Source: Saccoglossus kowalevskii (taxonomy: Eukaryota; Hemichordata; Enteropneusta; Harrimaniidae). Taken from it: a stretch of DNA of 45,062 nucleotides. Shown one piece after another: positions 6,701 through 45,062 of this stretch (its first letter is position 1; every line of letters begins with the position of its first letter). The position numbers and the translations under genes are program-made. The notes below the pieces were generated by a model. The model did no database searches. It worked only from the letters and a program-made list of their open reading frames with translations, and had not been told where the DNA came from. The stretch spans positions 373,974 through 419,035 of the forward strand of contig NW_003128865.1 in NCBI RefSeq assembly GCF_000003605.2, read 5' to 3'.

Positions 6701-9700
6701 CATCATCACCATCAGATTTACCAATGGGCAATTTATCAACATCCTTCGCCATGTCTGAAATACCAATATAATGCAGATCTTCAGATTGATCGCGGGACGC
6801 CACCATCTCACAAATCTGTTATAATCGCAGTTACTCTTTACTGAAGTTAATAATGAGCTATAGTGTTGTTTCCACATTGCACAATACTATCGTAACCTGA
6901 GTATCCCCTGACAATTAAAGACAGTGGAGTATTGTTACTATTGATAGAACGAAACTTAGACCAGAATGCATTACGATCACAATCTTTCATAGCTGTGACT
7001 AGACCGTCTGGACGTGTTGTATTTTCCAAACTTTGCCAAATACGTAGAGCACGTTTAAGTAATTTTTGCACAATAGAGCTACAGATGAGTTGTTGATTAG
7101 TTTCGCTGCTGTGCGTAAACGGATCTGTATACCTGTCTAGGATCGCATAGTCAGACAGAACGTAAAATGGTCAGAACATTAAGCGGCGACCCTTTTCCCA
7201 ATCACCAATGACATGTACACTGTTACTCCCACAATCGTCAATAATACTTTTGATTTTCGGGAAATAGCTCATACAACAATGCACGTTGTCATTGCAATGC
7301 ACGGGTAGGTGAACACACAGGAAATATGAACGAAGACTTTCTTTTCGGAGATGGATTTTTTCCACAAAACAGCAACGCCACCATACGGCCGACCAGTTCT
7401 CAGTCTATCGTTTTCGGTCATAGATGCGGTACTCGAGGCATAGCACTGGCAGTTCATATTTAAAAGAAGAGGCAGTTCAGTTTGAGTGAGCCAGTGTTCT
7501 TGCAATAACGCAATATCGTGTGCATCGCAAAGTTCCTTAATATCACTTATTGACGATTTAACACCACGGCAATTATATGAAAGTAAGTATGCTGAGTGAC
7601 ATTATTATTTTGCTTTATAGTAGTACTTGCGGACTAGGGCAGCAGCAGGCCAAAAACAAGCATCTTGCAGCCTACGGAAATAATCACTCGATAATTAAAT
7701 GACAAATGACAAAACGGGTTAAATTTCGTATTCAACTTTTCATACTTTACTTTAGTGTTCAGTTTAATTATTGATGTAATCTTTGACTTCGCGCAGTGGT
7801 ATCCGTTGATAGCCTACTCACAAATATTTTCTTTGCGTTCTCTACCTCATTGTCATTAACATTTTCTGCGCACAATTTCACAGGTATATCTGACTAAACT
7901 GCACAATAGCTCATTTATGGCAACGTCGCCCGATGCAGAGGGTGGTTGACTTGATTTTGAATACAACAATAGACGGTGTAATGTCCACAGGTGATGAGGC
8001 GACAGTTTACCAAACGCAACTCTCAATAGCAAAAATACATCGATCTTCAGACCATATAAAAGTCACACAGCTTATAAAATAGCTAGTTATAAAATAGTTT
8101 ACAACCGTAAATAGTAAAAAGCAAGAACATACCAGCATTTTGGAACGGCAGATATGGAGACACTCATAGGAACTTCAACGCACGGTTGGTTTGATGTGAG
8201 TGGTCACCTTCTCAAACAATATTGTTTTTGTTTTTTTCGGATGTGCTCAAGTTCATTCTGACAGCACATATTTTATTGGTCGGGATGTTCAGTTGCACAC
8301 AAATTATTTGTATTGTTTTTACTGATACACCAACGTAGGAGGAGTGTTTTGTATAAATTAAAAGGATACACTCAATGGTGAGTGTAATCCATTAGTAAAC
8401 ACCGATATTACGATGACAGAGGCATCTACAATTGCGTAGAGATGTTAGATTAGAATGCTGTGTTAGTATCTTAGATGATCAGGAACGCGAAGAGTCATAG
8501 TTAATAATCATGTTGAAAATGAAAATTAGAAGTAATTCATTATCAAGTTGTGATTGGTGGTAGTATATATAAGCACATGATGTGATTGTGGGTTCGAATA
8601 TGGAGGCGTGGTCGATACATATAATTCCTATCCAATCTATGTAACATTTATAACATCTGAAATAAAGATGCTCTATATCTAGAATCGTCGGTGACTCTGC
8701 CTGACACGAAATGAGGATTGAATCTATTTCGTATGAGTGGTTATTGTTTTATTGAACATAACATAATGTTTACGACCCTTGAACTACGAGGGGCGTTCAA
8801 TAAGTAATGCCCCTGACCCACTTCCAGTTGTTGCATGTGTAATGATTTACATCTCTATGGGTTATGTTGCAAAATGTTGCAGCTCGGAACTAATTGTTTC
8901 TGATTTACAGGTGTTTGAACTGAATCAGGTGTGAAATGTAGCCAGTTGAGTGTCGCGCAGTGATCCGGTTTTTGTATTTGAAAGGACGCACACTAAAGAA
9001 GATTTTTGATGAAATAAAAGAAACTTATGGCGATGATGCCCCATCATATGACCTTGTAAAACGCTGGCATTTCCAGAAGCAAGAACGCGTCGATTGCCCG
9101 AGGATGAATTTGGAGATGTGCCAAGAATATGTTTTTCAAAACACTGATTACACAGTATTAAACAGGTTCATCACTATAATCCAGAGATAAATTCAGTGGA
9201 AACACTTGGACTCACCACCTCCAAAGAAGGCAAGGGTGCAGCCCACCGCTGACAAGGTCATCCTCACAGTCTTCTGGGACCAGGACAGAGTAGTGATTAC
9301 AGATTTCCTGGCAAAGGGTACCACAATTACAGGAGCATATTACGCTTTTGATGAAATTAAGAGAAGCTATCAAAATCAAGAGGTGGGGCAAGATCAGCAT
9401 AGGTATCCTCCTCCTGCAGGACAACGCTCCGCTCTGGTCCACCACTCGCATGTCGCCAGACCAGAAGCACGGGCGTATGGCTATGAAATCCTCCCCCATC
9501 CCCTTACTCTCCTGACCTTGCACCCTCTGACTTTCATCTCTTCCCAGCCATGAAGTTGTTTTTGAAAGGAAATCGTTTCCCAGATGATGCAGCCTTGATT
9601 TTTGAAGTTACGATGTGGTTGGAGAACCAAGCTGGGGTGTTCTACAAAAACGGTTTCCAGAGCTGCATCAAACAATGGGAGAAATGCATAACTCTGGGTG

Positions 9701-12700
9701 GTTCCTATGTAGAGAAAGAATAATAACTGAGCCAAGTTTCATTAATCTCCTGCTATGAGAAATGTGTCAGGGACATTAATTATTGAACATAATATGTAGA
9801 CTAAAGATGATTTTCGTTCTTGATCTTTAAAATATCATATATAAAACGGATTCAATATCGTGTTTTCTTATTATAGAACGTATTGCCGTGTATATTAACC
9901 ATGGCTATATGGGCAAGCGTAGTAGGTGCCATAGGGTGCCGGGTTATGGGATTTGTCCGGGGCAAAAGATAGTCACAGAACCCCCCACTCCAAATAATAA
10001 TCTAATCAAAGGATTAATAACGTAGGTTATAATTATATGTGTATTTCCCAGGTCTGGAAATGGTCAGCCTGAACACTCCAGTGACGGTCACTGTGTTGGA
10101 GGAAGCTGCTAACGGGGATGTTATCTATACTCCAATTGATGCAAATGGGCAAGGTGCCAATGCACAATACAAATTTGCATTATTACCAAATCCTGTCGTC
10201 CCGTTTCCATTTGAACTAGTGCAAGGTAATTATCCTCATATATTATTATAGTTAAACAGCGTAGCATTGTTGAAACCATGGTTTCATTATATTTGTATTT
10301 ATGTTTCTATCCGTGGTCACAGGTCCACCCGATGAGGACAATTTTGCACAGATACGAGCTGTAGTGCCACCAGGGTTTGATTATGACGTCATAACAGAGT
10401 ATATTTTGGGAATTACAGTGACAGATTTAAATGACCCTAACGATCCTGTAGTAACAGGAAATCTCACGGTTAAAGTAATAGACACTAAAAGTCCGCCCAG
10501 ATTTACAAACCTTCCTGCCACTGCGACAATTGGAGAACTGGCCACAGTTCCAGAATTGGTAAAATATGTAAAAGCCACAGACGATGACACATATGCAGCA
10601 GATATATCTTTCAATATCGTTGGAAGCAGTCCGTTTGGGGCTCCGTTCAAGATTATAAATGTTACGTATGACCTGTTTGCCTGGGAAGCAGGTAGGACCT
10701 TCTCGTATAATATATTTATTTTAATTCTCTATAAAACATTTTCTATAATTCCAAATGTGTCTAAGTTATACATCATGGCGCATCAACGACATTTATGATA
10801 GCAGATCACTAACAAAAATATGACATTTAACACGAGTCTTATTTGTTTGAGTATTTTCTAAAGGTTCAAGTGAAAATTTGTCGCAATGAAAATGTAAGAT
10901 ATAATTCAGTAACTAGTACTATTGAATGTGATGATTTGAACCACAGCAACACTAATTTTTTGTTGTTCATTATCCTAAATTCAAATGGATGAATAAATAA
11001 ATACTTTTCTTTTTGTACAGCTGTAGGAATTCAAAATGCTAACCTTCCTGGATTTGACTTCGAAAATGGACCACCAAGCTATGAATTATACATAGAGGCT
11101 GTTGATAATGATGGATTGTCCACGACGTCTACTCTAACGGTTGTGATCTCAGATGAGAATGAACCAATCAGAATAACCAATTTACCATCAACTATCTACC
11201 TGCCAGAGTCGGCCACCGGAAATGTGTTTTTGTTGACGTGGGAAGATGAGGATAACACAACAACAGCTATGCCGACCTTTATGATTTCTACCACACCGTC
11301 AAATGGACCATTCGCAGTTGACATATCAGGTGCAGTTCATCCTTAAATATTAACTTTCATTACTCATATATTTACGTTTAATAATTCACTGTTATGATAT
11401 TATTTATCCATTCTTTTTATAAATGCCGCGGTTTCTCGGGACAAAATGTCCACAGGGTCTCATTTAAGCATATATTTCTACAGGCAATATTCGGGTGGTC
11501 ACACCGGGATTAAATTACTTAGATCGATCATTCTGGACCGTAACCATATATATCACTGATCCAGATGGTCTTTCTGATACTGGAGATTTACATGTTTGGG
11601 TGACAGATGTCAATACAGGTCCCGATATTACTAATCTAGACGACACTATACAGATTGGTGAAATGAGTTCAGGAGGGTCGGCCATATTTGTTGTACAAGC
11701 TGTAGATGACGATGAAGATGATTATTTCTGCGTCATGTTTTCTGATCCAAACGATGGTAATTTTTACATGAATACAACCAGTAAGTAAAATCAAGGATGT
11801 TTATTCCGTGTCTTGCAAATCTAAAATAATTCAGATACATTAGCCCGTCAATGCTAATTAAACATGTAGATGCATATAGATAGTAGTTAGCTTTTTAGGA
11901 ATAAATCAACGGCAAACCACGACGGTCAATGTACGTTTTAAAACAACGAATATTTTTAAGCATTTCGAAACCAGACATTATTTATTATTCATTTGAACTT
12001 TTTATATTGTTATTCAAATCAAGTGCATTCTGAACTGCTCGTCATTCTGAGATCATTAGTAGTAATGTTATGTCATGATAATTTGTGATATACTATAAAT
12101 ACAAATCTCTGACTATACAAACTACATGCAGAAAACATATAATATAAAACAAACGTATAAAACCAAGTATAATCATCGTCAGAACGACCTACACAGTTAC
12201 ACAGTAAACACAACTCTATTCACCAGTGTTGACAAACAAGTGAGTAGAAGTAATACAAATACAGGCAAAAATATAAATTTGAAACAAATATTGAAATGCG
12301 CCGAAGCTCTATCAATGTTCACTATAATATACTATACCATGGACGTACATATCTGGGTGTTTAGAAGATATATCACCAGAGTGGTTTACTAGTTGATTGA
12401 AAGAATTATTACAGTAATTATGTAAAATTGCATTATATATTATTTCATACATTTATACACGAAATAAATGAACTTTCATAATAGAGACAGGACAATTTGT
12501 CTTCTATAATAAGGCCTCTTATATTGCTACAGCCAACTTCTTTTTAAATCAATTAGTGTATTTTTTCACTGTATATCAACAGCCAATACTATCTACGTAA
12601 TCGATTCACCTACTTTGGATTTTGAGACATTGGATGAATACATACTTACTGTGACATGCCATGACACAATGTATGCTGGGATACCACATAAATTAACGGT

Positions 12701-15700
12701 TCAGATCACAGATGAAAATGAACCACCAGAAATTACTGACCTGCCTGCCACAGTTACTGTACCAGAAGATGCTATCAATTCAGCTGAAATCTATGTGGCC
12801 GATGGTTATGATATAGATGGTGATGATCTGAGATATTCCATAACTGTCTCCCCGGCAAGTGGGCAAGGAAAATTTTACATAAGTAATACAAGTAAGTACA
12901 TCTTACATTAGATAACTGACATATACTGTTATGCTTATTTAGACATACATAAACAATATAAGTATATAAAATATATACAACATACAAATCTTCAATTTCA
13001 TTTCAGCAAACAATGACTGTCGTATAAAGATATCCAATAATCCCAGTTTTGATTTTGAGACTATAGACCAGTATATAATTGTGTTGGAGGCAACTGATGG
13101 TGAATTCACAGCTACTGGTACACTTAATGTTGATATAACGAACACCGATGAACCCCCTAGGTTTGTAGAAGATAATCAAGACATTCTCATCGACGAAGAA
13201 CAGGTTCGTTTTGTCAAGAATTTGTTCATGAATGAAACTATTGTTTGCACAAAATTATTAAGTCATAGGTAATTAATAATATGATTCCTGTTCATTAAAC
13301 AGATTATCGGAACAGTAGTACCAATCAACTGGGCAGTAATTGATGTCGACGATGCACTAACTGACCTGAATTTCTTCATGATCGGAGATACATATTCTCC
13401 CTACTTCAGCTTTACTTGGGGTTCTACTCCTGAACTACGTGTAGCTCAAATCATGGACTACGAAGCTGTATTTCCTCAACCATTCTCAATTACATTCACC
13501 GTGACTGATCCATCAGATGGGAAAGATTATCTCAATGTCAATATATATCTGCAGAACATCAACGATAATGCGCCTGTATTCACCCAATCAGTCTACATAA
13601 CTTCTGTTCTTGAAATGGAGTTATATGGTACGCTGGTACTTCAAGTTGTGGCCATTGATGATGATGTTGCCGACCTTATCACATACACAATCCAACCAGC
13701 AAGTCTATATTTTGACATTGATACTCTAACTGGAGATATTACTGTAACTCAGTCAATTGACTTAGAGACAGTTGGAGGAATGATTACCTTCACCGTAGTA
13801 GCAACAGATAATGGATCCCCATCACAACAGACCACGGCGACAGTAGATGTGACTGTTCTCAATGTGGACGACAACATTCCATTCTTTGATAAGCCATACT
13901 GGAATTGGGAGATACGCTTTGATGCTGACGTTGACTCATTCGTCAATAGTGTATCTGCAGTAGATGATGATATAAGTAGGTTTTTTAATGTATCTGGAAC
14001 CGGGAACGTCTTTCCTATAATTAAAATCGAATGAATCACCAAAAATGTAATAGTCAAAATACGTTCATTTCAACAAGTTGTCTAACTTTCCGACTTTATT
14101 TGATTTATATTGTGTCATGTGTTATATAGCAATTAAAATAATTCCTGCTATTTTAAGGTGGAAGTGATGGAGATGGTGATATAACATATAAACTGTATCA
14201 CTCACACCCTCGTTTCAACATGGAGACGGATGGTCGTGTAATTATTACTGACGAAATGAATCCAGAACAGAAATACTTATTATTATGTTATGCAGAGGAT
14301 AATGCAACACCACCGCATGCATCAAAGTAAGTATTAATTACTACTTCACTTTCCTAACCAGAGTAACATAAACGTGTTTGTAAACTTAAGATGGTACTAA
14401 GAAGAATACTACAATCTGTTTGCTGAGTACTGTCACATCAATTATCGAATGTACAAAGAATAAGTGTACATAGACTCATCGCTTATTTATCAATACCCTT
14501 TTTTATATTTTTGCAGTGTTGCCACAATTCGTATCGATACTTTCATACCACAGTTGGTACTTGTTGACATATTCCTGGGGATTTCAGTAAGCGAATTCAC
14601 AATGGACAAACGAAAGGAATTTCTTGATACACTAAATGGTATTTTCACCCCATGGTATTTCCGTATATCTACTGTTCACGAGCACAATGATCTGCAAGTC
14701 ACTTCGCGCCAACTTCTACAAAGGTGAATTATTTCGATCTTGTATATATTATATTGTTCTGCTATCAAATGGGAATTCAATTTAGATTTGAAAAACTGTT
14801 TACATCAAAACAAAATATGTAGCACTACGCGGCAAGTGTTTTGAATAATATCACTGTCATAATTGATTACAGTTCAGCAGTTGTTGAAGCATATGCACTT
14901 ACAAGTGACCTTACAGAATACCAATCAAACATTGACACAGTTAAGGAATTCGTTTATTTCCAAGATTTAGTAGGCGCAATGACAATCGACTCTACTGGTA
15001 CTCCAACAGCAATCATCACCGGTCCAGAGTTTGATACATTTCCTATTGTGAAGGTAGAACCAACTTATGACGTAGAGACAGCGAATAGTTACAATTGGTG
15101 GTTGGACACGTTAGAAGGATTTATAACAATAGGGATTCTGTCATTATTGCCTCTTATTCCTCTCATTTTCCTGATGATATGTTGTTGCCGGAAGTACAGA
15201 TGTTGTTCAAGACTAGCAAGTATGTGCAAAAGATGCACGTGTACATGTTTGAAATCATTATGTAGGAGATCAAAGCCACAAAAAAAGAAAGAACCTTCAC
15301 CGTAAGTATCACTATTCTGATAAACAAATGTATTCAAAAAACATTTAACTAATATTATACTACTAATAAATACTCTCAACGTGTACCAAAACCATGTGCA
15401 ATTGACACTTATCGAATTTAATTTCAATTTAGTACTCCAGTAGTTGCAAAAGCTGTTGATGATCAAAATGCCAAAAAGAAAGCAGAAACACTCATTGTAG
15501 TACCAGCACCACTACGTGCTCCGCCTCCAGAAAAGAAAGTCAGGTCTTACAATGGGGGTTACTCAAGTGCAGCCAGCTTGAAAAAGCAATTCGATGCCTT
15601 CATTGGTGACAAGAAGCCAAGCCAAGCAAAAACTGGCACTCAAATTAATGGATCGAGAAAGTTGCTTGCATCTGGGCACGCTTTTGAGACTATCAGTAAT

Positions 15701-16220
15701 CCTCCGGGTAAGTTTTACAACATTTAAAATAACAATAGTGTTGAATTGGCAATCAATTCTTTGGAAGATTTGCAAATTGACTTCACACATGTTATTGACA
15801 TACAATTGATTTCAGCTGATACCACTTGAAACATGAAATCAAGGATAATATTTCACCATGTATTTGAATATAAAGAATGTCAAGAATTCTCCGGGTGGTT
15901 ATTACTCGGTCAAGGCTTCCATTAATTATGTGCATATCTAATTCCTGTCGATCTTTTGAAAATACAAAAACTGTATATTAACATAACAATGATATAATGC
16001 CCAAATACGGTACAATCTGCCGGTATGTCTAATATTATTAAAGCAATATATACAATTAATTATCGTAAATCCATTATTTGCAGCTTCAGTTGATCACGCC
16101 CCGAAAACACCAATAGGCCACCGGCAAAGCGTTAGTCATGGAGGTGATAGTCGGGAAAACAGTGACTTGTTTCTGGGTAACAGGTCCTGGCGTAAGATAA
16201 GTGTGCCGTCAAACAAATAG
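3695..16220 (+). CDS. Gene A: cadherin-repeat type I membrane protein (13 exons, 1207 aa)
   Basis: Exons: 3695-3773, 10052-10225, 10323-10691, 11021-11329, 11484-11780, 12583-12891, 13007-13203, 13303-13975, 14158-14326, 14517-14723, 14873-15301, 15433-15707, 16084-16220. All junctions are GT-AG and the frame stays open to TAG. Residues 1-26 are a signal peptide and about 27-870 are eight cadherin repeats. Repeats 6 and 7 end in near-canonical calcium linkers (NINDNAPVF, NVDDNIPFF); repeats 1-5 have degenerate ones (DTKSPP, DENEPI, DVNTGP, DENEPP, NTDEPP). A conserved domain of about 140 residues precedes the helix at about 1010-1033, which is followed by a Cys-rich stretch (CCCRKYRCC) and a 174-residue basic tail. 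The family mediates calcium-dependent adhesion at the plasma membrane; the ligand is unknown. The start was chosen because its exon codes a signal peptide and ends in a phase-1 GTGAGT donor as in B and C. Alternative end: a donor at TGG-C|GTAAGA (about 16191) could join an acceptor ending at 16928, giving a slightly shorter C-terminus. Confidence 0.87.
3774..5944. other. Gene A intron 1, 5' part
   Basis: No exon or RNA gene is recognised here. There is a short TTA microsatellite near 4660-4680. A relatively GC-rich patch at about 4970-5350 contains repeated CAAGACTC/GACTGGACT words. It carries a 123-codon open frame with no recognisable family, and I take it to be transposon-derived or chance. 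Confidence 0.4.
5945..7600 (-). pseudogene. Decayed non-LTR retrotransposon (LINE), antisense to gene A
   Basis: Read on the minus strand from about 7600 down to 5945, the sequence codes pieces of a LINE ORF2 in order. The first is an APE-type endonuclease start with SYNCRGVKSS, LQEHWL and GRPYGGVAVLW (about 7595-7360). Next comes a spacer with WKQHYSSLL and LVFNSLLIHGFLP (about 6890-6555). Last is reverse transcriptase with DNYRPSAIS, FKPGRST and the block GVQEGSIISPLLFNMYIDDL (about 6550-5950). The pieces are in different frames, with several frameshifts and stops. The YADD catalytic box reads YVDY, removing a metal-binding aspartate, so the copy is dead. Order and motifs fit the Jockey/CR1-type clades; I cannot assign the clade more closely. 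No polyA tail or target duplication was found. Confidence 0.85.
7601..8784. other. Gene A intron 1, middle part
   Basis: No exon, RNA gene or recognised mobile element is visible. The stretch separates the antisense LINE from the mariner element. Confidence 0.4.
8787..9796 (+). mobile_element. mariner (Tc1/mariner) element, inactive, 1.0 kb
   Basis: The ends form terminal inverted repeats. The left end contains GTTCAATAAGTAATGCCCCT and the right end, reverse-complemented, contains GTTCAATAATTAATGTCCCT; both continue GAC.CA inwards. TA dinucleotides flank both ends (8785-8786 and 9797-9798), as expected of a mariner TA target duplication. The outer ten bases of the right end have diverged. 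At about 1.01 kb it is shorter than the usual 1.25-1.3 kb, because of an internal deletion in the transposase gene. It sits in intron 1 of gene A in the same orientation as the gene. Confidence 0.9.
8936..9723 (+). pseudogene. mariner transposase pseudogene
   Basis: The remains of a mariner transposase are colinear with the family. The initiating ATG (8936) is followed at once by TAG. The helix-turn-helix region reads RFLYLKGRTLKKIFDE and DDAPSYDLVKRWH. The family's usual middle section is largely deleted around 9080-9180, taking the first catalytic aspartate (the GDETW motif). SPPPKKARVQPTA and LTVFWDQD follow, then, in shifted frames, LLQDNAP with the second catalytic aspartate and SPDLAPSDFHLFP with the third. 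The C-terminus GGSYVEKE ends at TAA 9721-9723. At least two frameshifts are needed, so no active enzyme is possible. Confidence 0.88.
11781..12582. other. Gene A intron 5 (802 bp)
   Basis: This is the longest internal intron of gene A. It is AT-rich with no recognised element. An 88-codon open frame at 12126-12392 has low-complexity composition and no family signature, and I do not call it. The equivalent intron of gene B (24682-24898) is 217 bp and does not align with it beyond the splice sites. Confidence 0.6.
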
Positions 16221-16796
16221 GATAAAAAAGGTTAGCAAATCTCGTTGGAAAAAGGAATTCGATTATTATAAAACCAAGACTCGTATTAACTCATGTTTTC
16301 TCATTATCTTTTTGCATGGGAATGGATTCGGGTTTACATTATAGATCACTCGGGATGCTGTTTAAGTGGGTGCCAACAATGACATAACTCTTTTCCATAC
16401 GTGCTTCACATTCGCCCAACTTCAAAATTTTGGATTATTGTAAATATGGGAAGCCCAAGTTTTTTCAAAATGAAGATCAATGATTTTGGTAGAATGTCCA
16501 TATTATTGCTCTATATCACAGAGTATATAATATGCCCGATACATGTCCTATCAAACCTATTTCCTCAATCTTATAATTATTTTCAAAATAGCAGACCTTT
16601 TAAATTTTAGATCTCCGAATTGCCTCTTTGATCATCTTTACCTACCGGCTTGTACTAATAATTGCATTTAATTATCTGAATTCATGTCTTTACATTAAAA
16701 ATATTGATTTATCTTCATAAGAAGTGAGAACTCTGGGAGCGATGGCAGATTTACAAAAATGTTCTTAGGAAAATATCTTGGGAAAAAAATCATGGA

Positions 16797-16802
16797 AATA
16801 AA
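16797..16802 (+). terminator. Candidate polyadenylation signal of gene A
   Basis: AATAAA lies about 580 bases after the gene A stop codon, the first canonical hexamer I find there. In AT-rich DNA such hexamers occur by chance, so this is tentative. Confidence 0.35.
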
Positions 16803-18715
16803 CATACAGCGAATCGATCATTCAACAAATTAGCCCTAAACTAAGTAAAGCATAGTTTTTCTACCATCACCCGAACGTTTCTAATGGTCCATCCCAATAA
16901 CCTAGAATATATTTGTTTATTTTTGCAGTGATTTAACTGGATACTGGACGTTGTATCTACATTGGATTATACCAATATCCACCATGAACTGTTATATCTA
17001 CTTTAGTGGTGATAATATAATTGTGTCAGCTAATTATTATCGTATTCAAAACTATTTACGATTTGGCTATCTAAGCCAATGATAAATGTATATAAATACT
17101 AAATATCCCGAAACTTTTCCTTATCCTAGTCATGCTTTAAATTGATTTTATCACATATAACCGAGATGACTGATGCATTTTATTATTAACACAATATTAT
17201 TTAATACCAATCACATACCATGATTATATTATTGTAATTGTGAACTTGTAATTCATTTACATTACGTTAGAATTAGAACACCACCGTCGCCACATAAAAC
17301 GGATAAGCACACTTTGTATTTGATCTGTTTCGACTGAGTTGGGATTTTTATTTTAACTTGATGTAGGATTACTGACAGGATAACTATATAATCTAAATAT
17401 GTACTCAGAACTCGGCGTAACCCTAAGTAAACTGTAGCAGCATTTTAGCTGTATGTTCATTGTCGGGCCTCAAACGTATTCCTGGTCACCATTCTCAGTG
17501 AAAACTAACCAGCTTAGAAGCCAATCATTGGCTGCCAAAACCTCAGAGATGGGCAGATCTTGTATCGACATTTAAGGTTGACAGCATGTATCTTACCACC
17601 ATCACACTGAGATACGCCTAACACTGATTGTATTGTGTCAATTTGCATTCAGTATTAGATATCGGTAATGTTGTGTTGGTGCGCGTGTCTTGCGATATTA
17701 CTATCTTGTCTGCACTGTGACATTGTTTCAGTTATATCTGAAAATAGGTGTTGAACTAAACCGATATGACAAACATTGTCTGACAAGATTGTATCAGTCA
17801 ATTAGAGCTGACCCAGTAGATACTCGGGTGGAAATGACGTTTTTTTCCTTCACTTCACTATTTTTAATGATTTTTTGTTCATTTTCACATTTACTTTTTC
17901 TCTTATAATCGACGTGCCGTGTATTTTTAGGAAATTCTACCACCCCTCTGAGTTCATTGGTGATCTATCCGTTACGCCTGTCTGGTTATGTACGTCTGAT
18001 ATTGTTACCACTTTTTTAAGTTGCCATGTAGTGAAACATTTTGTCGATGTTCTAGTCAGTGTAACATATTGAGGCAATAAAGTTGTGTGACATTTTATTT
18101 GCGTATGTATTCGTGATTTTGAATAAGCGGTGCTTGAATTATGATATGAAATTTTCCCCTCGAATAGTTTCCCACCACACGAATCTTTGCAATAGATAGC
18201 ACTTTGTAGATAGCACTCACCGCTCAGAGGAGATGCCAACCTGCGCTAGATTTCTTCAATATTCATATCAATATTCGGAGCCACTGTTTAGGCCTTATAC
18301 ACATATATGCTTTTCACTTGCTCTTTATCTCTAAAGTGTAAGTATTTGGATCACAAAAATAATGACGATCTTTCCCTGGGATAGGGAATATTGTGAACAT
18401 ACATACACACACATATTTTAAATTTGTCCTACAAATTACATGTAATGTATGTTACATAGGGAATATGTATGTCAAGTCTGAAGTTCCTAGCTACCCCCCC
18501 CCCCTTGTAACCCAATACTGAATATACATAAATCAGTAATCTGATCATGTCCTTTAGATCCGAACATTTGCCCACCAGAAGCTGTGAGTTGCATGGGATA
18601 CACAAAAAACGCGTCAGAACTCCTATATGTGAGTTTGAATGTTTTAAGTCTATTGCCACGTAAAACAAACGCGTGAGAACCTTTATGAATATGTTTGTTC
18701 CCAATCTCACTACGT

Positions 18716-18941
18716 GAGCGATGGTCGTGGCGCTGCGCATGTGCGACATTTTTGTTGGTAAACATTGATATTCCCACAATGCGATCTTTTAATGGAAATC
18801 ATAAGTCTGAGGTTTGGCCTGGGTGCGACTTGCACTAATTACCGCCAGTGACTCCTTGGATGCCTTCAAATCCTCTAAATATACCTAATTAAAGTTTGCT
18901 AACGTGCCAGTTTGTACTCGTTGATCTGCGCAACAGTCAAG
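18716..18941 (+). repeat. Partial MITE copy
   Basis: The stretch aligns over about 225 bases with the complete MITE at 39564-39870. Shared blocks include CTGGGTGCGACTTGCACTAA, TACCTAATTAAAGTTT and CAGTTTGTACTCGTTGATCT. The left end is recognisable but diverged (GCGATGGTCGTGGCG against GCGCGGTAGTCGTCGCG), and the last 65 bases or so are missing or unrecognisable. It is older than the other copies. Confidence 0.85.
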
Positions 18942-19520
18942 GTTCATGCAACACACATAGATATGTATGGTGACATCATGTCGAGATTCCATTCAAGTCT
19001 CATCTCGTAGATAGCGAGACCTTGTGACATGATATATATATATATCAATGTTCAAGGTATGTAATAAAACAATAAAACATGTCTTATCACTATCGTAGTG
19101 AATAATGTAATACATCGAAAATGTGCATTTATTATGTTTATTTACATGTGTCACTCGTAATCCATCATATCGCGAGCAGCTATTTTGATCCACCTGGACC
19201 TCCCGGTATCCTAGTTACCTTGGGCGTGCGCATTCGCATTGTTCTGAGTTGGGAACGCTTATGCGAGAGCAAGATTATAACGGGATTTTGGTATCATGTC
19301 ACGCTACTTACAAACCCCAGGTTATGTATCTCTGATAACACCCATATATCTCTTAAGAATGATCTAACGTAAATTTTCCTGTAAGCAAGGCCATATGTGT
19401 GCGAAACCTTTCCTGGTAGTTATATTTTATAACTGTATGAACAAGGACTTTGACCTCCGACCCGGGGTACCCAATATACAACCTAGAATATACAACCTAG
19501 GTTGTCGTGCCAACTTCTAA

Positions 19521-19998
19521 ATTATCTGAGCCTCTTCTTCACAAGTAAATTATATAATACTCAAAGCTTCATTGCTCTGTGGGAATTACCAGAGCTCTTC
19601 GAAATATGTTAATTGAAACCTTCTCTCTCTATTGAATTTATCTGAGCCTTCATGATCTATGTAAATTTTTGGAGTCTGCTCACCATGTGAACATTATTGT
19701 AACTTCATTGCTCTATGTAAATTACCTTTGACTCCACAGGGAAATTATAGCTTCCTTTATGCAAATTATCGAAATCTTTTCGTCCTTGCTCTAGAGATGG
19801 AACATCTATGGAAATTATCAGAGCCGCCTCATTTAGTGGTAATTCTCATTCAATGTTAATCATCAGAGCCGTCTGGAAATTGGAAATTATCGAAGCCACT
19901 TTACGTTAAGCCATTTTCTCGATACACATAAATTATCAGAGACTCCCCTGTCCATCGAAATCAGAGTCTACTTGCTCTATGAAAACTATCAGAACCTT
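19521..19998 (+). repeat. Decayed minisatellite, unit about 30-45 bp
   Basis: The motif AAATTATCAGAGCC recurs about a dozen times, with variants such as GAATTACCAGAGC, TTTATCTGAGCC, AAATTATCGAAGCC and AAAACTATCAGAACC. Copies are spaced irregularly and often preceded by TTGCTCTATG. The array is too diverged for an exact unit length. It reads as an old tandem array in intergenic DNA. Confidence 0.7.
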
Positions 19999-20396
19999 TT
20001 AGATATTCATTTGTATACTCGATGTTTTGAGAGCTCATATGCAAATTGCAAATAAGAAACATGGCGTGGTTTTGACTGAGGCGGCAGCCGCTGTTATATA
20101 TATCTAGGTAAAATTGTGTGTGGACGCTAGAGTGATTTTGTATGTATGCGAGGATATAGATGTAGACGGCTGATTTCATTGAATACAGTTGTTTGTTGTG
20201 ACCTGTGCCTGTCTGGTCGTTAGGTGACTGTGCTTAATTGCTATTACGTGTTCGAGCATGCAATCAACTTTATTGCCTTTGCTGCATTATTGGCTCGGTT
20301 GCGATACTTGCAGTTCGACTGTCGGAGCTGGTATTTACCTAAACGTGGTCTTACCTGAGAGTAACTGATGATATTTAACAAGACATACTGGTGACG

Positions 20397-20472
20397 ATGA
20401 TTCTGGACAATGTCTCTACCTGTTTTCTGATGATTGTTTGCATTTTGATGCAAGTTGATAATTTCGTTGAAG
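20397..20472 (+). CDS. Gene B exon 1, signal peptide
   Basis: This 76-base exon codes MILDNVSTCFLMIVCILMQV and five further residues, a hydrophobic signal sequence. It ends at a phase-1 GTGAGT donor and joins GA at 22145 to make glycine. The peptide does not resemble that of A except in its hydrophobicity, so this exon lies outside the A/B high-identity stretches. Confidence 0.78.
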
Positions 20473-23400
20473 GTGAGTTTCACTAATTTCACGAGCGCAA
20501 TTCGTGTGGCTCAAAATAGGTTCCAATCCTGGTTGGATACTTGAAAAAAAATCACAAAAGAATTGACAGTATCGACCTTTTTATGAATATGCCGTTAAAT
20601 ACACACTTTTGGTAATTGTATAAAATAGTTTTGACATTTCTATCATAGAGCCGTCTGTAGGGAGTTTGTTAGTTTACATTAACTGGCCAGGTTCCAGTGC
20701 TATATCTCGTGGTATTCCGCTGTCTATTTAAATGCATAACAGTTACTATATGCTTATTGTGTATGAGCACCGTTACAACACATGAGATTATCTACGCGGC
20801 ACCATTCTCCAAACTAATGATGTCACGATCCTAGAAAGTTTGCACAATGTACTGTTCTGTCACTGCCTGATTGAACAGCCGCCCACGGGAATCGATCTTT
20901 CGAGTGATTTCTGATATCTCATTCTCAAGTATATGGAACAAGTTTTCATCGTTTCGAACATTTTATATGACTATAAAACCCTGTAAAACATTCAAAAAAG
21001 TTGTTTAACCATAAATAAAGGTCTATAACTAACATTAATAGATACACGTCATAGTATGATGACCGAGTTAGTGATTGTCAACATAATATGTTATTGCGAA
21101 TTCGGATGAAAACGACAGGATTTTTGCCATATTTGGTCGGATTAAATGTGTGTAAGTTGTTAATATGTAATCAATCTGTGAACTGATTCGGCGTATATGG
21201 AATAATAGTAAACTGTGTTCACTTTGTCATTTGTAAAAGTGCCTGATTATGCTGTACTCAATTAACTGTACACATTATCTCTACCCAAAATACGCGACGA
21301 TTTCCGTTGACAGTAAGATTTAACCCACTTGTGTTTTTCGTGCCGACTTCAAAGCAGAGAAAACCACGGTTTGCATAATTACAACACGCTGTCGAGCAAT
21401 CAGAATGACTTATTTAGACAATTGAAATACTGGTATAATATATTATAATATAATTTCTAATTAATATATCATATTTTTGATAATGTATTATGTATTATAT
21501 TTCATGTATAAGCTTACTCAATACATAACTTGCGTCATAAATGTCTGAACATCCATGACCAAATTAAATATCATTATTACAATATTGATTTTCAAATTGT
21601 TTGTGTCATGAATTTAAAAGTAAAATATTGTCTTAATTTCTCATGTCCCATGTCATACCACTTTGTTGTCAACAACATCTCCCTTCTTTTTGTATTTAAA
21701 TATAAATAATGCTGCGTTTCTATGCTTTATCTGCGGGGTTCAAGAGGTTTTGCAAGTAGTATTTAAAGTACACTATGAGTGAATGTAAACCAATAAATCG
21801 GCTTGACAGTATGACAAGTTATTTATACCCCACGTGCAACACTAAGTTGAATTATTTCAAGTGAGTGACTACCATATGCATCTGTTTCAATGCGCAGTGC
21901 AAACAAAGAATGTCAAAATGTATGTTATTTATTGCATTGTACATGCATTGAATTCTTAATGAGCAAATAATCAATACATTATTTATCTCACAAAAAATAA
22001 CCACTCGTTGGTGTAAATGACACTGACTAAACATGAGATTAACATTGCCCGAGACCAAAATATATCTCATTCACTAACAATGAACTATAAAATACTTTTT
22101 TTAAATTATTCATATACATATTATTGTGTATTTATATTTCCAAGGACTGGATATAGTATTATCGGATCGTGTTTCGGTATTGGAAGAAGCTGGTAATGGA
22201 GACGTGATTTATACACCAATCGAGGCAACGGGACAGGGTGCAAATGCTATGTACCAATTTGCAATAATACCCAATCCGAATGTCTCGTTTCCATTTGAAC
22301 TAGTTCAAGGTAAATATATTGACATACTATTGCACTATTTGTACGTAACACGCCTGGTGATATCATGGATGAACCAATAAACTATGTTCTTTTATCAATT
22401 CTTGTATATGTTCATATATATATATATACAGGTCCACCCGATGCAAACAATTTTGCACTGATACGAGCAGTAGTGCCACCAGGATTTGATTATGACGTCA
22501 TAACAGAGTATATATTGGAAATTACAGTAATAGATCTAAATGACAATACCCAGCCTGCAGTAACAGGAATTATAACGGTTGAAGTGATAGACACTAAAAG
22601 TCCGCCCAGATTTACAAACCTTCCTGCCACCGCGACAATTGGAGAACTAGCTACAGTTCCAGAATTGGTAAAATATGTAAAAGCCACAGACGATGACACA
22701 TATGCAGCAGATATATCTTTCAATATCGTTGGAAGCAGTCCGTTTGGGGCTCCGTTCCAGATTAAAAATGTTACGTATGACCTGTTTGCATGGGAAGCAG
22801 GTAGGACCTTCTCGTATATAATAAACTATTTTCTATAGTTCCCAGTAGCGCAAAACTCAATTAATAAACATGCAAATAAATGAACACAGTACACCTTTTT
22901 CTGTTTGTACAGCTGCGGAAATTCAAAATGCTAACTTTCCCGGTTTTGACTTCGAAAATGGACCACCAAGCTATGAATTATACATAGAGGCTGTTGATAA
23001 TGATGGATTGTCTACGACGTCTACACTAACGGTTGTGATCTCAGATGAGAATGAACCGATCAGAATAACCAATTTACCATCAACTATCTACCTGCCGGAG
23101 TCGGCCACCGGAAATGTGTTTTTGTTGACGTGGGAAGATGAGGATGTCCCAACAACAACAGCTGCAATGCCGACCTTTATGATTTCATCCACGCCGTCAA
23201 ATGGACCATTCGCAGTTGACACGTCGGGTACGATACACACATAAACGAAGACATGGTTCATCTAGTAACCTTAAAGAGGCACTCATTATTTTTACACATT
23301 TCTTGGTTCATATTTTGTTCTTTGTCTGTGTCTGTATGTAACTTCCCTAGTGTTGTACAGTGTGCGTGTTGAACAGAATCAAACAATAATTTAAGATCTA

Positions 23401-26400
23401 ATCTCGTTGATTGGTACATTTGTACAAATTGACGACAAAGCAATATTGTAGTCTACAGTTGGATTTTTTTCTTTTTCGGCTATTACTCTGCAGTGGCGGA
23501 TCCAGCAAAATGTATTGGGGGGGGGGGGGCAAGCTTNNNNNNNNNNNNNNNNNNNNNNNNNNNNNNNNNNNNNNNNNNNNNNNNNNNNNNNNNNNNNNNN
23601 NNNNNNNNNNNNNNNNNNNNNNNNNNNNNNNNNNNNNNNNNNNNNNNNNNNNNNNNNNNNNNNNNNNNNNNNNNNNNNNNNNNNNNNNNNNNNNNNNNNN
23701 NNNNNNNNNNNNNNNNNNNNNNNNNNNNNNNNNNNNNNNNNNNNNNNNNNNNNNNNNNNNNNNNNNNNNNNNNNNNNNNNNNNNNNNNNNNNNNNNNNNN
23801 NNNNNNNNNNNNNNNNNNNNNNNNNNNNNNNNNNNNNNNNNNNNNNNNNNNNNNNNNNNNNNNNNNNNNNNNNNNNNNNNNNNNNNNNNNNNNNNNNNNN
23901 NNNNNNNNNNNNNNNNNNNNNNNNNNNNNNNNNNNNNNNNNNNNNNNNNNNNNNNNNNNNNNNNNNNNNNNNNNNNNNNNNNNNNNNNNNNNNNNNNNNN
24001 NNNNNNNNNNNNNNNNNNNNNNNNNNNNNNNNNNNNNNNNNNNNNNNNNNNNNNNNNNNNNNNNNNNNNNNNNNNNNNNNNNNNNNNNNNNNNNNNNNNN
24101 NNNNNNNNNNNNNNNNNNNNNNNNNNNNNNNNNNNNNNNNNNNNNNNNNNNNNNNNNNNNNNNNNNNNNNNNNNNNNNNNNNNNNNNNNNNNNNNNNNNN
24201 NNNNNNNNNNNNNNNNNNNNNNNNNNNNNNNNNNNNNNNNNNTGACGCCTGTTTGTTTGACAATACCTTATATCAGTATAATCTTACAACGTACAAAAAA
24301 TAAGAAATTTATAAATGTTTTAAGAACTGTATCGAACATTCTTAACGCAAAACATTAGTAATAACGAAGTACATCTGATTTCAGGTAATATTAAAGTGGT
24401 AACACCGGGATTGAATTATTTAGAGCGAACATTCTGGACCATAACTATATATATCACTGATCCAGACGGTCTTACTGATACTGGAGATTTACATGTTTGG
24501 GTGACAGATGTCAATACAGGTCCCGATATTACTAATCTAGACGACACTATACAGATTGGTGAAATGAGTTCAGGAGGGTCGGCTATATTTGTTGTACAAG
24601 CTAAAGATGACGATGAAGATGATTATTTTTGCGTCATGTTTTCTGATCCAAACGACGGTAATTTTTACATGAATACAACCAGTAAGTATAATACTTTTTA
24701 GCATAATATTTCCTGATGACTATATATGTCATTTATTCTAATATCTACACGCACTGCATATGTACAGTCTTCTATGCAGCTTATTATTTAACAATTGTAT
24801 TTTATTTAGTGATGAGGATAATTAAGACAATGTTTTTGTTCTTGAGTAGTTTATTAATTTTCAGGTTAACAATGATATAAATATCTGTTTTCACACAGCC
24901 AATACTATCTACGTAATCGATTCACCTACTTTGGATTTTGAGGCATTGGATGAATACATACTTACTGTGACATGCCATGACACAATGTATGCTGGGATAC
25001 CACATAAATTAACGGTTCAGATCACAGATGAGAATGAAGCACCAGAAATTACAGACTTGCCTGCCACCGTTACTGTACCAGAAGATGCTATCAATTCAGC
25101 TGAAATCTATGTGGCCGATGGTTATGATATAGATGGTGATGATCTGAGATATTCCATAACTGTCTCCCCGGCAAGTGGGCAAGGAAAATTTTACATAAGT
25201 AATACAAGTAAGTGACGCCATTTCCAACTAACACCAATGAAATTAAATGATTTAATATGCAATAACTATTATATCAGCTAAGATTTGTATATTTATATTT
25301 TATTTCAGCAAACAATGACTGTCGTATAAAGATATCCAATAATCCCAGTTTTGATTTTGAGACTATAGACCAGTATATAATTGTGTTGGAGGCAACTGAT
25401 GGTGAATTCACAGCTACTGGTACACTTAATGTTGATATAACGAACACCGATGAACCCCCTAGGTTTGTGGTCGATAATCAAGACATTCTCATCGACGAAG
25501 AACAGGTTAGTGCTCATCAAGAGAACAATTTGTAATATTTGGGGGACTTACATAACCAGTCTATATTTGTAATTGTTTATTTTTGCTAAGAGCATTATTA
25601 AAAATTATTGAATATTTACTACGAACATGTCAATACAAAACAGTTGCAATCTGCTTAAATTTCGATGTAGGCATAGGCTTCATTTTTAAAATTTGTTACT
25701 AACTATCAAGATACGATAACACAAAATCTAAATAACATCAAGTTAAACAAAAAATAAACAAAAATAACAATACTTATAAAAATTCAACCTATACAAACAT
25801 CGGATTTTAAACAGATTTGATTAATTGCGGTTTATTGTTGTATTTAAGGATATATTGCTGTTTATAGCACCCCCACCCGTCTCTATATAGCGCAGACGAG
25901 ACGAGGAGATGTCAGTTCTACATACATACCTACATACATATTAGCAAGCACCACACGTGAAACCTTTCACACAAGAACAACTCTTGTTATATTTATTGGG
26001 AAATAACGGCTCTGACATTGACCACGGGGTAAGAATGGGGAGAACTTAGGAATGTTATTTAATGTTTATTTTAATGAACAAATAAATAAGATTGAGCTGG
26101 ACCACACTCGAATTATTGTATTGTATTGTATTGTTAGATGTTTCATACTATCAACATTTACCGAGTATTTTAGAAGAATACGTTTGATCATTTGTTTCCC
26201 ATAATAAGGTTTCACGCCCTTTCCATCCGTCCATCAGATTATTGGAACAGTAGTACCAATCAACTGGGCAGTAATTGATGTCGACGATGCACTAACTGAC
26301 CTGAATTTCGTCATGATCGGAGATACATATTCTCCCTACTTCAGCTTTACTTGGGGTTCTACTCCTGAACTACGTGTAGCTCAAATCATGGACTACGAAG

Positions 26401-29400
26401 CTGTATTTCCTCAACCATTCTCAATTACATTCACCGTGACTGATCCATCAGATGGGAAAGATTATCTCAATGTCAATATATATCTGCAGAACATCAACGA
26501 TAATGCGCCTGTATTCACCCAAGCAGTCTACACAACTTCTGTTCTTGAAATGGAGTTATATGGTACGCTGGTACTTCAGGTTCTGGCCATTGATGATGAT
26601 GTTGCCGACCTTATCACATACACAATCCAACCAGCAAGCCTATATTTTGACATTGATACTCTAACTGGAGATATTACTGTAACTCAGTCAATTGACTTAG
26701 AGATAGTTGGAGAAATGATTACCTTCACCGTAGTAGCAACAGATAATGGATCCCCATTACAACAAACCATGGCGACAGTAGATGTGACTGTTCTCAATGT
26801 GGACGACAACGTTCCATTCTTTGATAAGCCATACTGGAATTGGGAGATTCGTTATGACACTGATGTTAGCTCATATGTTAATAGTGTCTTTGCAACTGAT
26901 GCTGATTTGGGTAAGTTTTTATTTCAATGAGGGAAGGTTATTAAACTGACAGATTAGAACTTAAGGTAAAGATTCATCTATATGAATCATTTCCCTTAAA
27001 ACAATGTAATTGCTTTGCCAATAGTCTTACTCACTGGGGCCAATATGCGCTGGATCTAGACCATACGACATTTAGACAACACAATATCACGAAATGTTTT
27101 TCATACAACTTAAGCTCATATAATTCTATAATAAAGGCTTGTGGAATTCCATTCTCAATCACGAATCCCGTTCTGGTTACTAATGTTGAAAACGCTGAGT
27201 TCGGTTAAAATCACTAATATCTAAGATTCGTCGTTAATAGGTGCAGATAATGTGAGCAGTGGTATCACGTACAAGATGTATCTTTCACATCCTCGATTCA
27301 ACATGGAAACAGATGGCCGAGTTATTGTTTCAGATAAATTGCATCCAGAACAGAAATACTTATTAATCTGCTATGCAGAAGATAATGCAACACCGCCACA
27401 TGCATCGCAGTAAGTTTGTTACAACAAACAAGACCAACAATTTACAGTTACACACGCATTGTAGCCTACTCCATAAAGTTATAGCTTCATTTCCGTAGCT
27501 AAGTTTCACTCTGTAGTAATGTCGCCGAGTATCTGCAGGTGCACGCATTGAAACATATTCGCCAGAACACATTCCACATGCAAATATTGCGTTATTGTTC
27601 CAACAACAATAATATTTTCATCGTCATCAAGAACCCAGTCAACAGCTATGCACATTACTTACACAAACGCAAAAATATATCGAGTGAACTTAATGAATAC
27701 AATTTAAAATAATTCCACTTGTCGCATGGAAGTCACATGGGTATCAAGTAAAACTACCTAATATAAATCCACAATTATAGTCTCTGAAGTGAGATTACTA
27801 ATCCATATTCATAAAGAATATACAACAGACAAATGACAACATGCTCCAATCAGTGAAAAAATGTAACAAAGTTAACATTATAACAAATTTCTTCACAGTG
27901 TTGCCACAATTCGTATCGATACTTTCATACCACAGTTGGTACTTGTTGACATATTCCTGGGGATTTCAGTAAGCGAATTCACAGCGGACAAACGAAGGGA
28001 ATTTGTTGATACACTAAATGGTATTTTCACCCCATGGTATTTCCGTATATCTACTGTCCACACGCGTAATGAATTACAGGTCACTTCTCGTCGCCTTCTA
28101 GAAAAGTAAGCACATCGTTATTATCCAATTATACACTTGGCACTTGCTTACATCAGCTTAATGTGTACATCGGTTGTACGTGATATTAGTGTAATCAACA
28201 TTTTTTGGCAATGTAATTGTTTTCGTTCACGTGCAGAATGTTTGGGTTTGATTTTCTTATTTTGTTTTTCGTGTTCCATTTAGTAAATGTTCAATAATAA
28301 ATACATCACAATCAGATGAGCATTATTACTATATGAACAAAAAACCGTATGCCTCAAAGAAAAACACCACTCGAGCGGACTACTGGATAGAACGTGCCTC
28401 AATTTAATTGTTCGGCATGATGCAAATACCCGCTGTCTTGAAGTAATTTCTTATACTATGTTACAACCATGATTGATTACAGTACGGCAGTTGTGGAGGC
28501 ATATGCATTAACTAGTGACCTTACGGAATACCAGATAAACGTTGAGGAAGTTAAGGAATTCGTTTATTTCCAAGATTTAGTAGGCGCAATGACAATCGAC
28601 TCTACTGGTACTCCAACACCGATCATCACCGGCACAGAGTTTGATACATTTCCTATTGTGAAGGTAGAACCCACTTATGACGTGCAGACAGCGAATAGTT
28701 ATAATTGGTGGCTCGACACGTTAGAAGGATTGATAACAATAGGCGTTCTTTCTTCATTGCCTTTTATTGGTTTTCTTTGTCTAATGTTATGCTGCTGCTG
28801 GAAGTACAGATGTTGTGCAAGATTGGCAAGGTGCTACAAGCAACGCAAGTGTGGTTGTTGTAAATCAGTGTGTAACAGATCACATTTACCTGACGTGAAA
28901 GAACAATCAACGTAAGTTGTTGTGTGCATGATAATACTAATATGTATTGAATCATGTCCTTATTGTGGTTGTGCTAAAGTTGTACTATAAGGACAACAAA
29001 AAGAAGAAAAAAACCATGTTAATATTTTGTTTTTTTAAGAGACAAGTGTTTATTTCATTGTTCCCCTATTTTTTAGACATGATGTTCGTCCCTCCATAAT
29101 AATTAAAGATGATGTGGAGCCGAAGACGAAGGGAGAACCGCTGATAGTGGCACCAGCACAGCCACGTAACATGCCTGTCCAGGAGAAATCATCAGATAGA
29201 AGACTTAGGAACTACAATGGGCGTTATTCAAAAACGGCCAGTTTGAGGAAAGAATATGATACTTTCGTTGGTGACAAGAAACCAGCTTTAGCAACAACCG
29301 ATTCCAAGAAAGATGAGTTCGGAAAAGATGGTTCCATGAAGACTTTGGATCAGGGCTCTAAGTTGAAAACAAAATTGCCAGGCAAATATCCAGATATTTT

Positions 29401-29404
29401 TTAA
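20397..29404 (+). CDS. Gene B: cadherin-repeat type I membrane protein (1177 aa, or about 1210 with exon 13)
   Basis: Exons: 20397-20472, 22145-22309, 22432-22800, 22913-23227, 24385-24681, 24899-25207, 25309-25505, 26238-26910, 27241-27409, 27899-28105, 28483-28911, 29077-29404. Every boundary and phase matches gene A. Residues 1-25 are a signal peptide, followed by eight cadherin repeats, the membrane-adjacent domain, a helix at about 1008-1031, a Cys cluster (CCCWKYRCC) and a basic tail. The tail shares RxYNGxYS, ASLxKxxD and GDKKP with A. Large parts of exons 3, 4, 5, 6, 7, 8 and 10 are nearly identical to A, whereas exon 2, the end of exon 8, exon 9 and the tail are clearly different. 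At the end of exon 12 the donor equivalent to A's G|GTAAGT reads G|GCAAAT. Reading through gives GKYPDIF and TAA at 29402-29404, with AATAAA 207 bases later; GC-AG splicing to exon 13 is the alternative. Intron 4 contains a 706-base gap, but the flanking exons join in frame. Confidence 0.85.
20473..22144. other. Gene B intron 1 (1.67 kb)
   Basis: The intron is AT-rich with no recognised exon, RNA gene or mobile element. It is much shorter than intron 1 of A (6.3 kb) and C (3.9 kb), which are swollen by transposons and a minisatellite respectively. Confidence 0.6.
23491..23536 (+). mobile_element. Possible hAT-type terminus next to the assembly gap
   Basis: CAGTGGCGGATCCAGCAAAA at 23491 resembles terminal inverted repeats of hAT transposons, which commonly begin CAG-GGCGGATC-AG. 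It is followed by a run of twelve G and then the gap, so the rest of the element, if present, is hidden. Inferred from one end only. Confidence 0.45.
23537..24242. other. Assembly gap of 706 N
   Basis: Undetermined bases inside gene B intron 4. Exon 4 (ending 23227) and exon 5 (starting 24385) lie outside it and join in the same phase as in A and C, so no conserved exon is expected inside. Any coding frame drawn across the gap is an artefact. Confidence 0.99.
25506..26237. other. Gene B intron 7 (732 bp)
   Basis: This phase-0 intron shows no recognised exon or element. The equivalent intron of gene A is only 99 bp, although the exons on both sides are about 98 percent identical between the two genes. 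It carries short TACA and GTATT simple repeats. Confidence 0.6.
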
Positions 29405-41757: not shown

Positions 41758-41832
<75 letters not shown>

Positions 41833-44580: not shown

Positions 44581-45062
44581 TGTATAAGGTCAGAGTGTTA
44601 CATATCAAATCAGAGTGTTGCATATCAGATCGGAGTGTTGCATATCAAATCAGAGTGTTACATATCAAATCAGAGTGTTGCCTATCAAATCAGAGTGTTA
44701 CATATCAAATCAGAGTGTTGCATATCAAATCAGAGTGTAGCATATCAAATCAGAGTGTTGCATATCAAATCAGAGTGTTGCATATCAAATCAGAGTGTTG
44801 CATATCAAATCAGAGTGTCGCATATCAAATCAGAGTGTTGCATATCAAATCAGAGTGTTACATATCAAATCAGAGTGTTACATATCAGATCGGAGTGTTG
44901 CATATCAGATAGGAGTGTTGCATATCAAATCAGAGTGTTGCCTATCAAATCAGAGTGTTGCATATCAAATCAGAATGTTACATATCAAATCAGAGTGTTA
45001 CATATCAGAACGGAGTGTTGCATATCAGATCGGAGTGTTGCATATCAAATCAGAGTTTTGCC
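44581..45062 (+). repeat. 20-bp satellite array, at least 24 copies, running off the window
   Basis: The unit is CATATCAAATCAGAGTGTTG with scattered variants (GTTA for GTTG, AGATCGG for AAATCAG, CCTATC for CATATC). Copies keep an exact 20-bp period to the last base, so the array continues past the window. Variant units recur in blocks (AGATCGG pairs at the start, near 44890 and near 45010), suggesting local amplification of groups of units. The 110-codon frame here is repeat, not gene. Confidence 0.97.

Follow-up and report, generated by a model that had tools for sequence, protein, structure and literature searches.

In the avian Z and W gametologs, conversion signals span exons with extremely dissimilar introns between them, a pattern described as "exon-specific gene conversion" (Wright et al., 2014, PMC4278454). 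Exon-limited conversion is already in print, and two tandem cadherin-like genes of the hemichordate Saccoglossus kowalevskii, herein referred to as A and B, are a clear case of this known process. The genes are located in a stretch of 45,062 nucleotides (NCBI RefSeq assembly GCF_000003605.2, contig NW_003128865.1, forward-strand positions 373,974-419,035), which was analyzed at its full length and is called the window; all coordinates are positions in the window unless a contig is named. As in the avian gametologs, the converted exons of A and B are parted by dissimilar introns, of which intron 3 is partly alignable. Unlike the gametologs, which belong to two sex chromosomes, A and B are tandem paralogs, and the same cluster provides a control pair with aligning introns.

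Three further systems were compared. In the tandem protocadherin genes of fugu, regional conversion is described in the 3' region of the variable exons, together with a raised G+C content at third codon positions (GC3) (PMC1852091). Like these genes, A and B are tandem members of the cadherin superfamily with a coding sequence that is partly homogenized, synonymous sites included, and partly diverged; unlike here, the question of introns is absent from the fugu tracts described, which lie within variable exons. According to a review of Caenorhabditis paralogs, most reports of conversion concern exons, introns that have diverged may hinder it, and one study found tracts that extend to introns in 15% of events (PMC3966223). 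In the cluster analyzed here, by comparison, entry into introns comprises a part of intron 3 and about 20 bases at a small number of edges. Finally, the described model of conversion mediated by complementary DNA (cDNA) and reverse transcriptase removes introns (PMC3652778); a spliced template would also leave intron sequence uncopied, but A, B, and a third copy, C, keep their introns. Spider-silk genes (PMC9779670) were considered as a parallel and not used, because the introns are homogenized within a gene there.

The original prediction, made from the letters of the window alone, proposed repeated gene conversion between A and B. This proposal is strongly supported by a mosaic of synonymous divergence, by permutation tests, by switches of divergence inside exons, and by tracts in other gene pairs. 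A (from 10052), B (from 22145), and C (36797-43491), all on the + strand, have an identical 11-exon layout, numbered 2-12 following the original prediction. Joining the exons gives an open frame in each gene, with exon 12 of C taken as an open frame, and the introns that separate exons 2-12 start with GT and end with AG. The synonymous divergence (dS) of A vs. B, calculated per exon by the Nei-Gojobori method, is far from uniform. It is 1.32 in exon 2 (10052-10225 in A, 22145-22309 in B), 0.15 in exon 3 (10323-10691, 22432-22800), 0.20 in exon 4 (11021-11329, 22913-23227), 0.18 in exon 5 (11484-11780, 24385-24681), 0.06 in exon 6 (12583-12891, 24899-25207), 0.04 in exon 7 (13007-13203, 25309-25505), 0.09 in exon 8 (13303-13975, 26238-26910), 1.24 in exon 9 (14158-14326, 27241-27409), 0.17 in exon 10 (14517-14723, 27899-28105), and 0.40 in exon 11 (14873-15301, 28483-28911). 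Exon 12 is saturated, or nearly so, along its entire length. In A this exon ends before the donor GTAAGT at 15708 (15433-15707); in B its open frame occupies 29077-29404, with a possible GC donor at 29382 that would place the end at 29381. For the divergence tables, exon 12 was extended to the in-frame stop (in A, an open frame to 15727). Nonsynonymous divergence (dN) is lower than dS in most exons, indicating purifying selection.

Identity also changes inside exons. Recounting reproduced the differences previously given for exon 7 (3 of 197) and exon 6 (6 of 309); the final 139 bases of exon 6 and the initial 160 bases of exon 7 are identical. The predicted breaks were likewise found. Exon 8 has 13 differences in its first 610 bases and 20 in its last 67 (which start at 13909, so that 4 bases belong to both stretches), and exon 10 has 4 in the first 155 bases from the splice site and then 15 in the last 52. 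Exon 3 has 22 differences in 10323-10477 and 6 in 10478-10691, with the DTKSPP codons at the change. Additionally, divergence is low in the interior of exon 4 (about 11055-11251) and higher at its edges, low in exon 5 from about 11549, and low in the middle of exon 11 (about 14942-15069, with one break) before a diverged end. Thus, synonymous divergence is close to zero in parts of exons 3, 6, 7, 8, and 10 and reaches saturation elsewhere. Among synonymous sites, the best run of low divergence spans 11546-13894 and contains 6 differences in 241 informative codons, and none of 5000 permutations was as good; the heterogeneity of dS between exons was also matched by none of 5000. A Bernoulli hidden Markov model of the spliced A-B alignment gave log scores of -1276.2, -1054.4, and -1035.3 for one, two, and three states, a gain of more than 220 log units, and its states switch inside exons, among them exons 3, 4, 5, 8, 10, and 11. 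Exons 2, 9, and 12 and parts of exons 3, 8, 10, and 11 escaped conversion. In these untouched parts dS exceeds 1; A and B are old tandem duplicates.

The introns of A and B were predicted not to align beyond the splice sites. This holds for nine of the ten, which have no local similarity beyond that of 100 dinucleotide shuffles, and fails for intron 3, which aligns in part: 18 of 18 bases at the donor end and a 28-base block at 96% identity, equaled by none of 100 shuffles. In global alignment, introns 2, 8, and 10 are weakly above shuffles (z of 2.9, 1.5, and 1.9). Intron 6 (12892-13006, 115 bp in A; 25208-25308, 101 bp in B) has no similarity beyond shuffles, although it is located between the two identical stretches of exons 6 and 7. 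When the window was compared with itself by BLAST, A and B matched in blocks that correspond to exons. Two of these blocks extend across the short introns 2 and 6 by means of gaps, and some overrun exon edges by 10-20 bases; this comparison found no match wholly inside the A-B introns and none between the flanks of the two genes.

Gene C served as the first control. Its dS to A and to B is at least 1.5 in every exon tested and mostly saturated, and the two tests applied to A-B returned no signal (4908 and 2138 of 5000 permutations for A-C, 2179 and 2740 for B-C). Synonymous constraint was rejected as the cause of the A-B mosaic, since the exons in which A and B are nearly identical are homogeneous and saturated in A-C and B-C. 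A genome search revealed further copies on the same contig (C2073, contig positions 257928-364509, outside the window and upstream of A), so that the cluster comprises eight related loci: D, E, F, H, G, A, B, and C. For D, E, F, H, and G, protein matches (tblastn) were used to place the exons, and the resulting limits may be off by, or miss, a few codons at the ends. The first exons of F are located within a gap, matching did not recover the first exons of H, and G is interrupted after exon 5 by a gap in the assembly; an 8.7-kb gap of N follows G and ends at the window start.

The pair E-F is a young segmental duplicate and provides the second control, with dS of 0.01-0.18 in 7 exons. All 6 of its tested introns align well above shuffles, with best blocks of 84-100% identity, and parts of the downstream DNA align as well. 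Introns of that exonic age should therefore be recognizable, and a generally fast turnover of introns was rejected on this ground. When introns were tested across the cluster pairs with a threshold of 1.3 times the best of 20 shuffles, this threshold was reached by 0 of 10 introns in A-B, 0 of 8 in D-E, and 0 of 6 in D-F. A few were barely above the best shuffle: A-B introns 3 (29 vs. 24) and 11 (20 vs. 19), D-E intron 8 (29 vs. 27), and D-F intron 5 (29 vs. 27). Thus, in A-B, D-E, and D-F the exonic dS is low and the introns are unrelated.

Other loci of the cluster undergo the same conversion process. A second mosaic limited to exons is seen in D-E, with dS of 0.14 in exon 8, 0.20 in exon 10, 0.21 in exon 5, and 0.27 in exon 9, vs. 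0.46-0.58 in exons 6, 7, and 11, 0.66 in exon 4, and 1.11 in exon 3; none of 3000 permutations matched it. G and A share 135 bp within exon 5 with 2 differences, vs. 389 of 972 outside (0 of 3000 permutations), and the same stretch has 5 differences in 132 between G and B. A tract in the region of exons 7-8 was found in E-H, F-H, and D-H (2, 0, and 7 of 3000 permutations, respectively). Its clearest part is the first ~195 bases of exon 8 in E-H, which are 84-98% identical in 45-bp windows, vs. 44-80% in the remainder. For the other pairs the counts were 2321 (A-C), 2111 (H-A), 144 (D-A), 83 (G-D), and 293 (the young E-F) of 3000. The G-A tract in exon 5 is bounded by diverged sequence on both sides, and A-B tracts end inside exons 8 and 10.

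At some exon edges the identity continues into the intron. Identity of at least 15 bp was found at the exon 3 donor of A-B (18 bp; 10692-10709 in A, 22801-22818 in B), which we read as a tract entering intron 3, at the exon 5 donor of D-E and D-F (18 bp), and at the exon 8 acceptor of the same pairs (16 bp with E, 20 bp with F). The edges of D-E and D-F are not independent, because E and F are near-copies. At the exon 6 acceptor of these two pairs, 16-17 of 20 bases match beyond the consensus, vs. a maximum of 12 in controls. None of the 178 control edges has 15 bp or more of intron identity; the controls are the pairs remaining after A-B, D-E, D-F, and E-F, some of which carry tracts elsewhere. 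The edge test was restricted to exons with reliable limits, leaving out exons 9-11 of D, E, F, and H, where the automatic limits were unreliable; exons 2-4 were also left out for D and E, and no limit was obtained for exon 5 of H. The shared intron bases may have been copied or may be left over from before, two origins that sequence alone cannot distinguish.

Repeated interlocus conversion from genomic DNA, limited to exons by homology, is in our judgment highly probable; this judgment includes a variant with looped-out introns, which is considered below. The exons of A and B would have been overwritten repeatedly, probably in many separate events, while the introns would have drifted until they were nearly without shared homology. 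Once the introns had lost homology, strand exchange could pair and resolve within exons alone, and tract ends would accordingly fall at or a few bases past the splice site, or within an exon. Stops at splice sites would then follow from introns that were already unrelated when the exons converted.

Several observations weigh against this explanation. Seven A-B edges (the exon 5 donor, both edges of exons 6 and 7, and the acceptors of exons 8 and 10), which are 93-100% identical over 40 bases, share 3-7 intron bases. With the splice consensus alone in common there, separate genomic tracts must each reach the end of homology. Moreover, the low-divergence state extends from the middle of exon 5 to exon 8 and crosses three introns without a break at the junctions. 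GC3 is not raised in the converted exons (0.337 vs. 0.322 in A, 0.337 vs. 0.365 in B), in contrast to the fugu protocadherins. The A-B differences are weakly enriched near exon edges (p of 0.057, 0.084, and 0.014 for 20, 30, and 40 bases), and D-F taken alone was matched by 264 of 3000 permutations. Finally, all results rest on one draft assembly, that is, on a single individual and no related species.

The run across exons 5-8 could be accounted for, with a DNA template, if one genomic heteroduplex extended over several exons and the introns were looped out and restored to the recipient form. Repair of such loops should sometimes go the other way, yet no whole intron aligns in A-B, D-E, or D-F. 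As a general account this variant appears rather unlikely; loop bypass over short introns is a possible detail of homology-limited conversion.

The same run, together with the seven edges that stop at the splice site, would also be expected if the template were spliced cDNA or mRNA, from which introns are never copied. The original prediction offered this speculatively, and on balance the evidence does not support it. In its favor is a continuity across A-B junctions: divergence in the last codons of an exon predicts that in the first codons of the next (r of 0.83-0.88, permutation p of 0.0002-0.002, 10 junctions), and this remains after the exon interior is subtracted (r of 0.64-0.73, p of 0.016-0.031). 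Between the two edges of a single exon the correlation is lower (r of 0.39-0.51). The continuity is found with amino-acid differences (r of 0.80-0.89) and is weak with synonymous sites alone (r of 0.11-0.37, p of 0.15-0.37); without the last junction the synonymous values are 0.26, 0.30, and 0.77 (p of 0.23, 0.23, and 0.01). It is not significant in D-E, D-F, E-H, F-H, and D-H (r of -0.02 to 0.50). Perhaps the amino-acid continuity reflects introns located inside cadherin repeats, with both sides under a common amino-acid constraint. Exon 9 ends with 40 bases at 85% identity, and exon 10 is fully identical over its first 85 bases, which also counts against a spliced template.

Other evidence also speaks against a spliced template. 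The intron bases shared at three edges cannot have been carried by it, although none of these edges belongs to A-B exons 5-8. Tracts often end inside exons. Recombination with cDNA, as described, should delete introns (PMC3652778), yet A, B, and C have each retained the full set of 10 introns from exon 2 to exon 12. A query in which exons 5-8 were joined gave 106 matches in the assembly (87 of 223 candidates scored), among which there was no high-identity joined-exon copy: matches in the cluster cover one exon each, with an overrun of a few residues, and matches outside it that span exon joins have at most 36% identity, a level that distant cadherin genes would be expected to show. Conversion from a spliced template is thus very unlikely, and the same small chance is given to its narrower form, in which exons 5-8 of A and B were homogenized in this way with the recipient introns left in place.

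Slightly less probable still is an artefact of assembly or polishing, by which exon reads of one copy were pulled into the other. The assembly is a draft with gaps of N, one of which occupies 706 bases of B intron 4. Judging from the assembled sequence, however, the graded tracts (dS from 0.04 to about 0.5) in several pairs, the open frames, and the spread of differences are unlike a collapse of reads. Least probable of all is a recent duplication without conversion under strong synonymous constraint or very fast intron turnover: introns generally evolve faster than coding sequence and most exons are under purifying selection, but A-C and B-C are saturated where A-B is near-identical, E-F introns align at similar exonic dS, and the A-B divergence is not uniform and switches within single exons.

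The cadherin identity of these genes was established by domain searches. The A protein matches the cadherin domain (Pfam: PF00028) in 6 stretches with an E-value of 1.3e-51; matches to POT1 (exon 8 peptide) and FAT4-N remained below the Pfam threshold. The nearest solved chains in a PDB search with the exon 8 peptide are CELSR1, protocadherins, and cadherin-23, which supports a cadherin identity only. By eye, exon 11 has a single likely membrane segment and, after it, a stretch rich in cysteine. In vertebrate-type clustered protocadherins, variable ectodomain exons share constant cytoplasmic exons; in contrast, exons 9-12 are present separately in each of the genes A, B, and C. A likely additional 3' coding exon, exon 13, was found at 16084-16220 in A and from 30012 in B, with a KTPIGH stretch common to both open frames; this exon in A and B and the donor at 15708 suggest that exon 12 is spliced on to it. 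When the open frames upstream of A, B, C, G, and D were compared, no first exon in common was found, and a weak 22-residue match between G and C was the only similarity; the search thus yielded neither upstream exons nor the start of the protein. A search of the genome with exon 8 gave many cadherin-like matches on contigs C347, C2180, C4133, C4774, C1913, C3527, C167, and others (150 of 271 candidates scored), with at most 46% identity and some open frames of up to 4971 amino acids, as in a cadherin-rich genome.

The window also contains several repeats and putative mobile elements. Upstream of A, broken open frames on the - strand (5946-7600) resemble what we take to be the reverse transcriptase and endonuclease of a long interspersed element (LINE), and open frames on both strands (8942-9738) resemble what is presumably a mariner-type transposase. 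A repeat at 84% identity, perhaps a mobile element, is located between A and B (18718-18943) and at the start of C intron 6 (39572-39802). Upstream of C, a tandem array (34118-35518) has long + strand open frames of repeated CHWIL/SLDSVSHCVTGF-like units. A second, short-period array with a repeated QIRVLHIKSECC-like frame (44583-45062) extends to the window end, where a 6.9-kb gap of N starts.

If the exons had indeed been converted from a spliced template, this would amount to exon-wise editing of a gene by the mRNA of its sister, and the finding would matter much more if single events proved to cross exon junctions with the introns untouched. For homology-limited conversion from genomic DNA, the cluster is a compact natural experiment, in which the young pair E-F, with introns as they appear at an exonic dS of about 0.1, stands beside the old A-B and D-E/F, where some exons are nearly as young and the introns are unrelated. 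Exonic dS can badly mislead the dating of such duplicates, and lost intron homology may confine conversion to exons.

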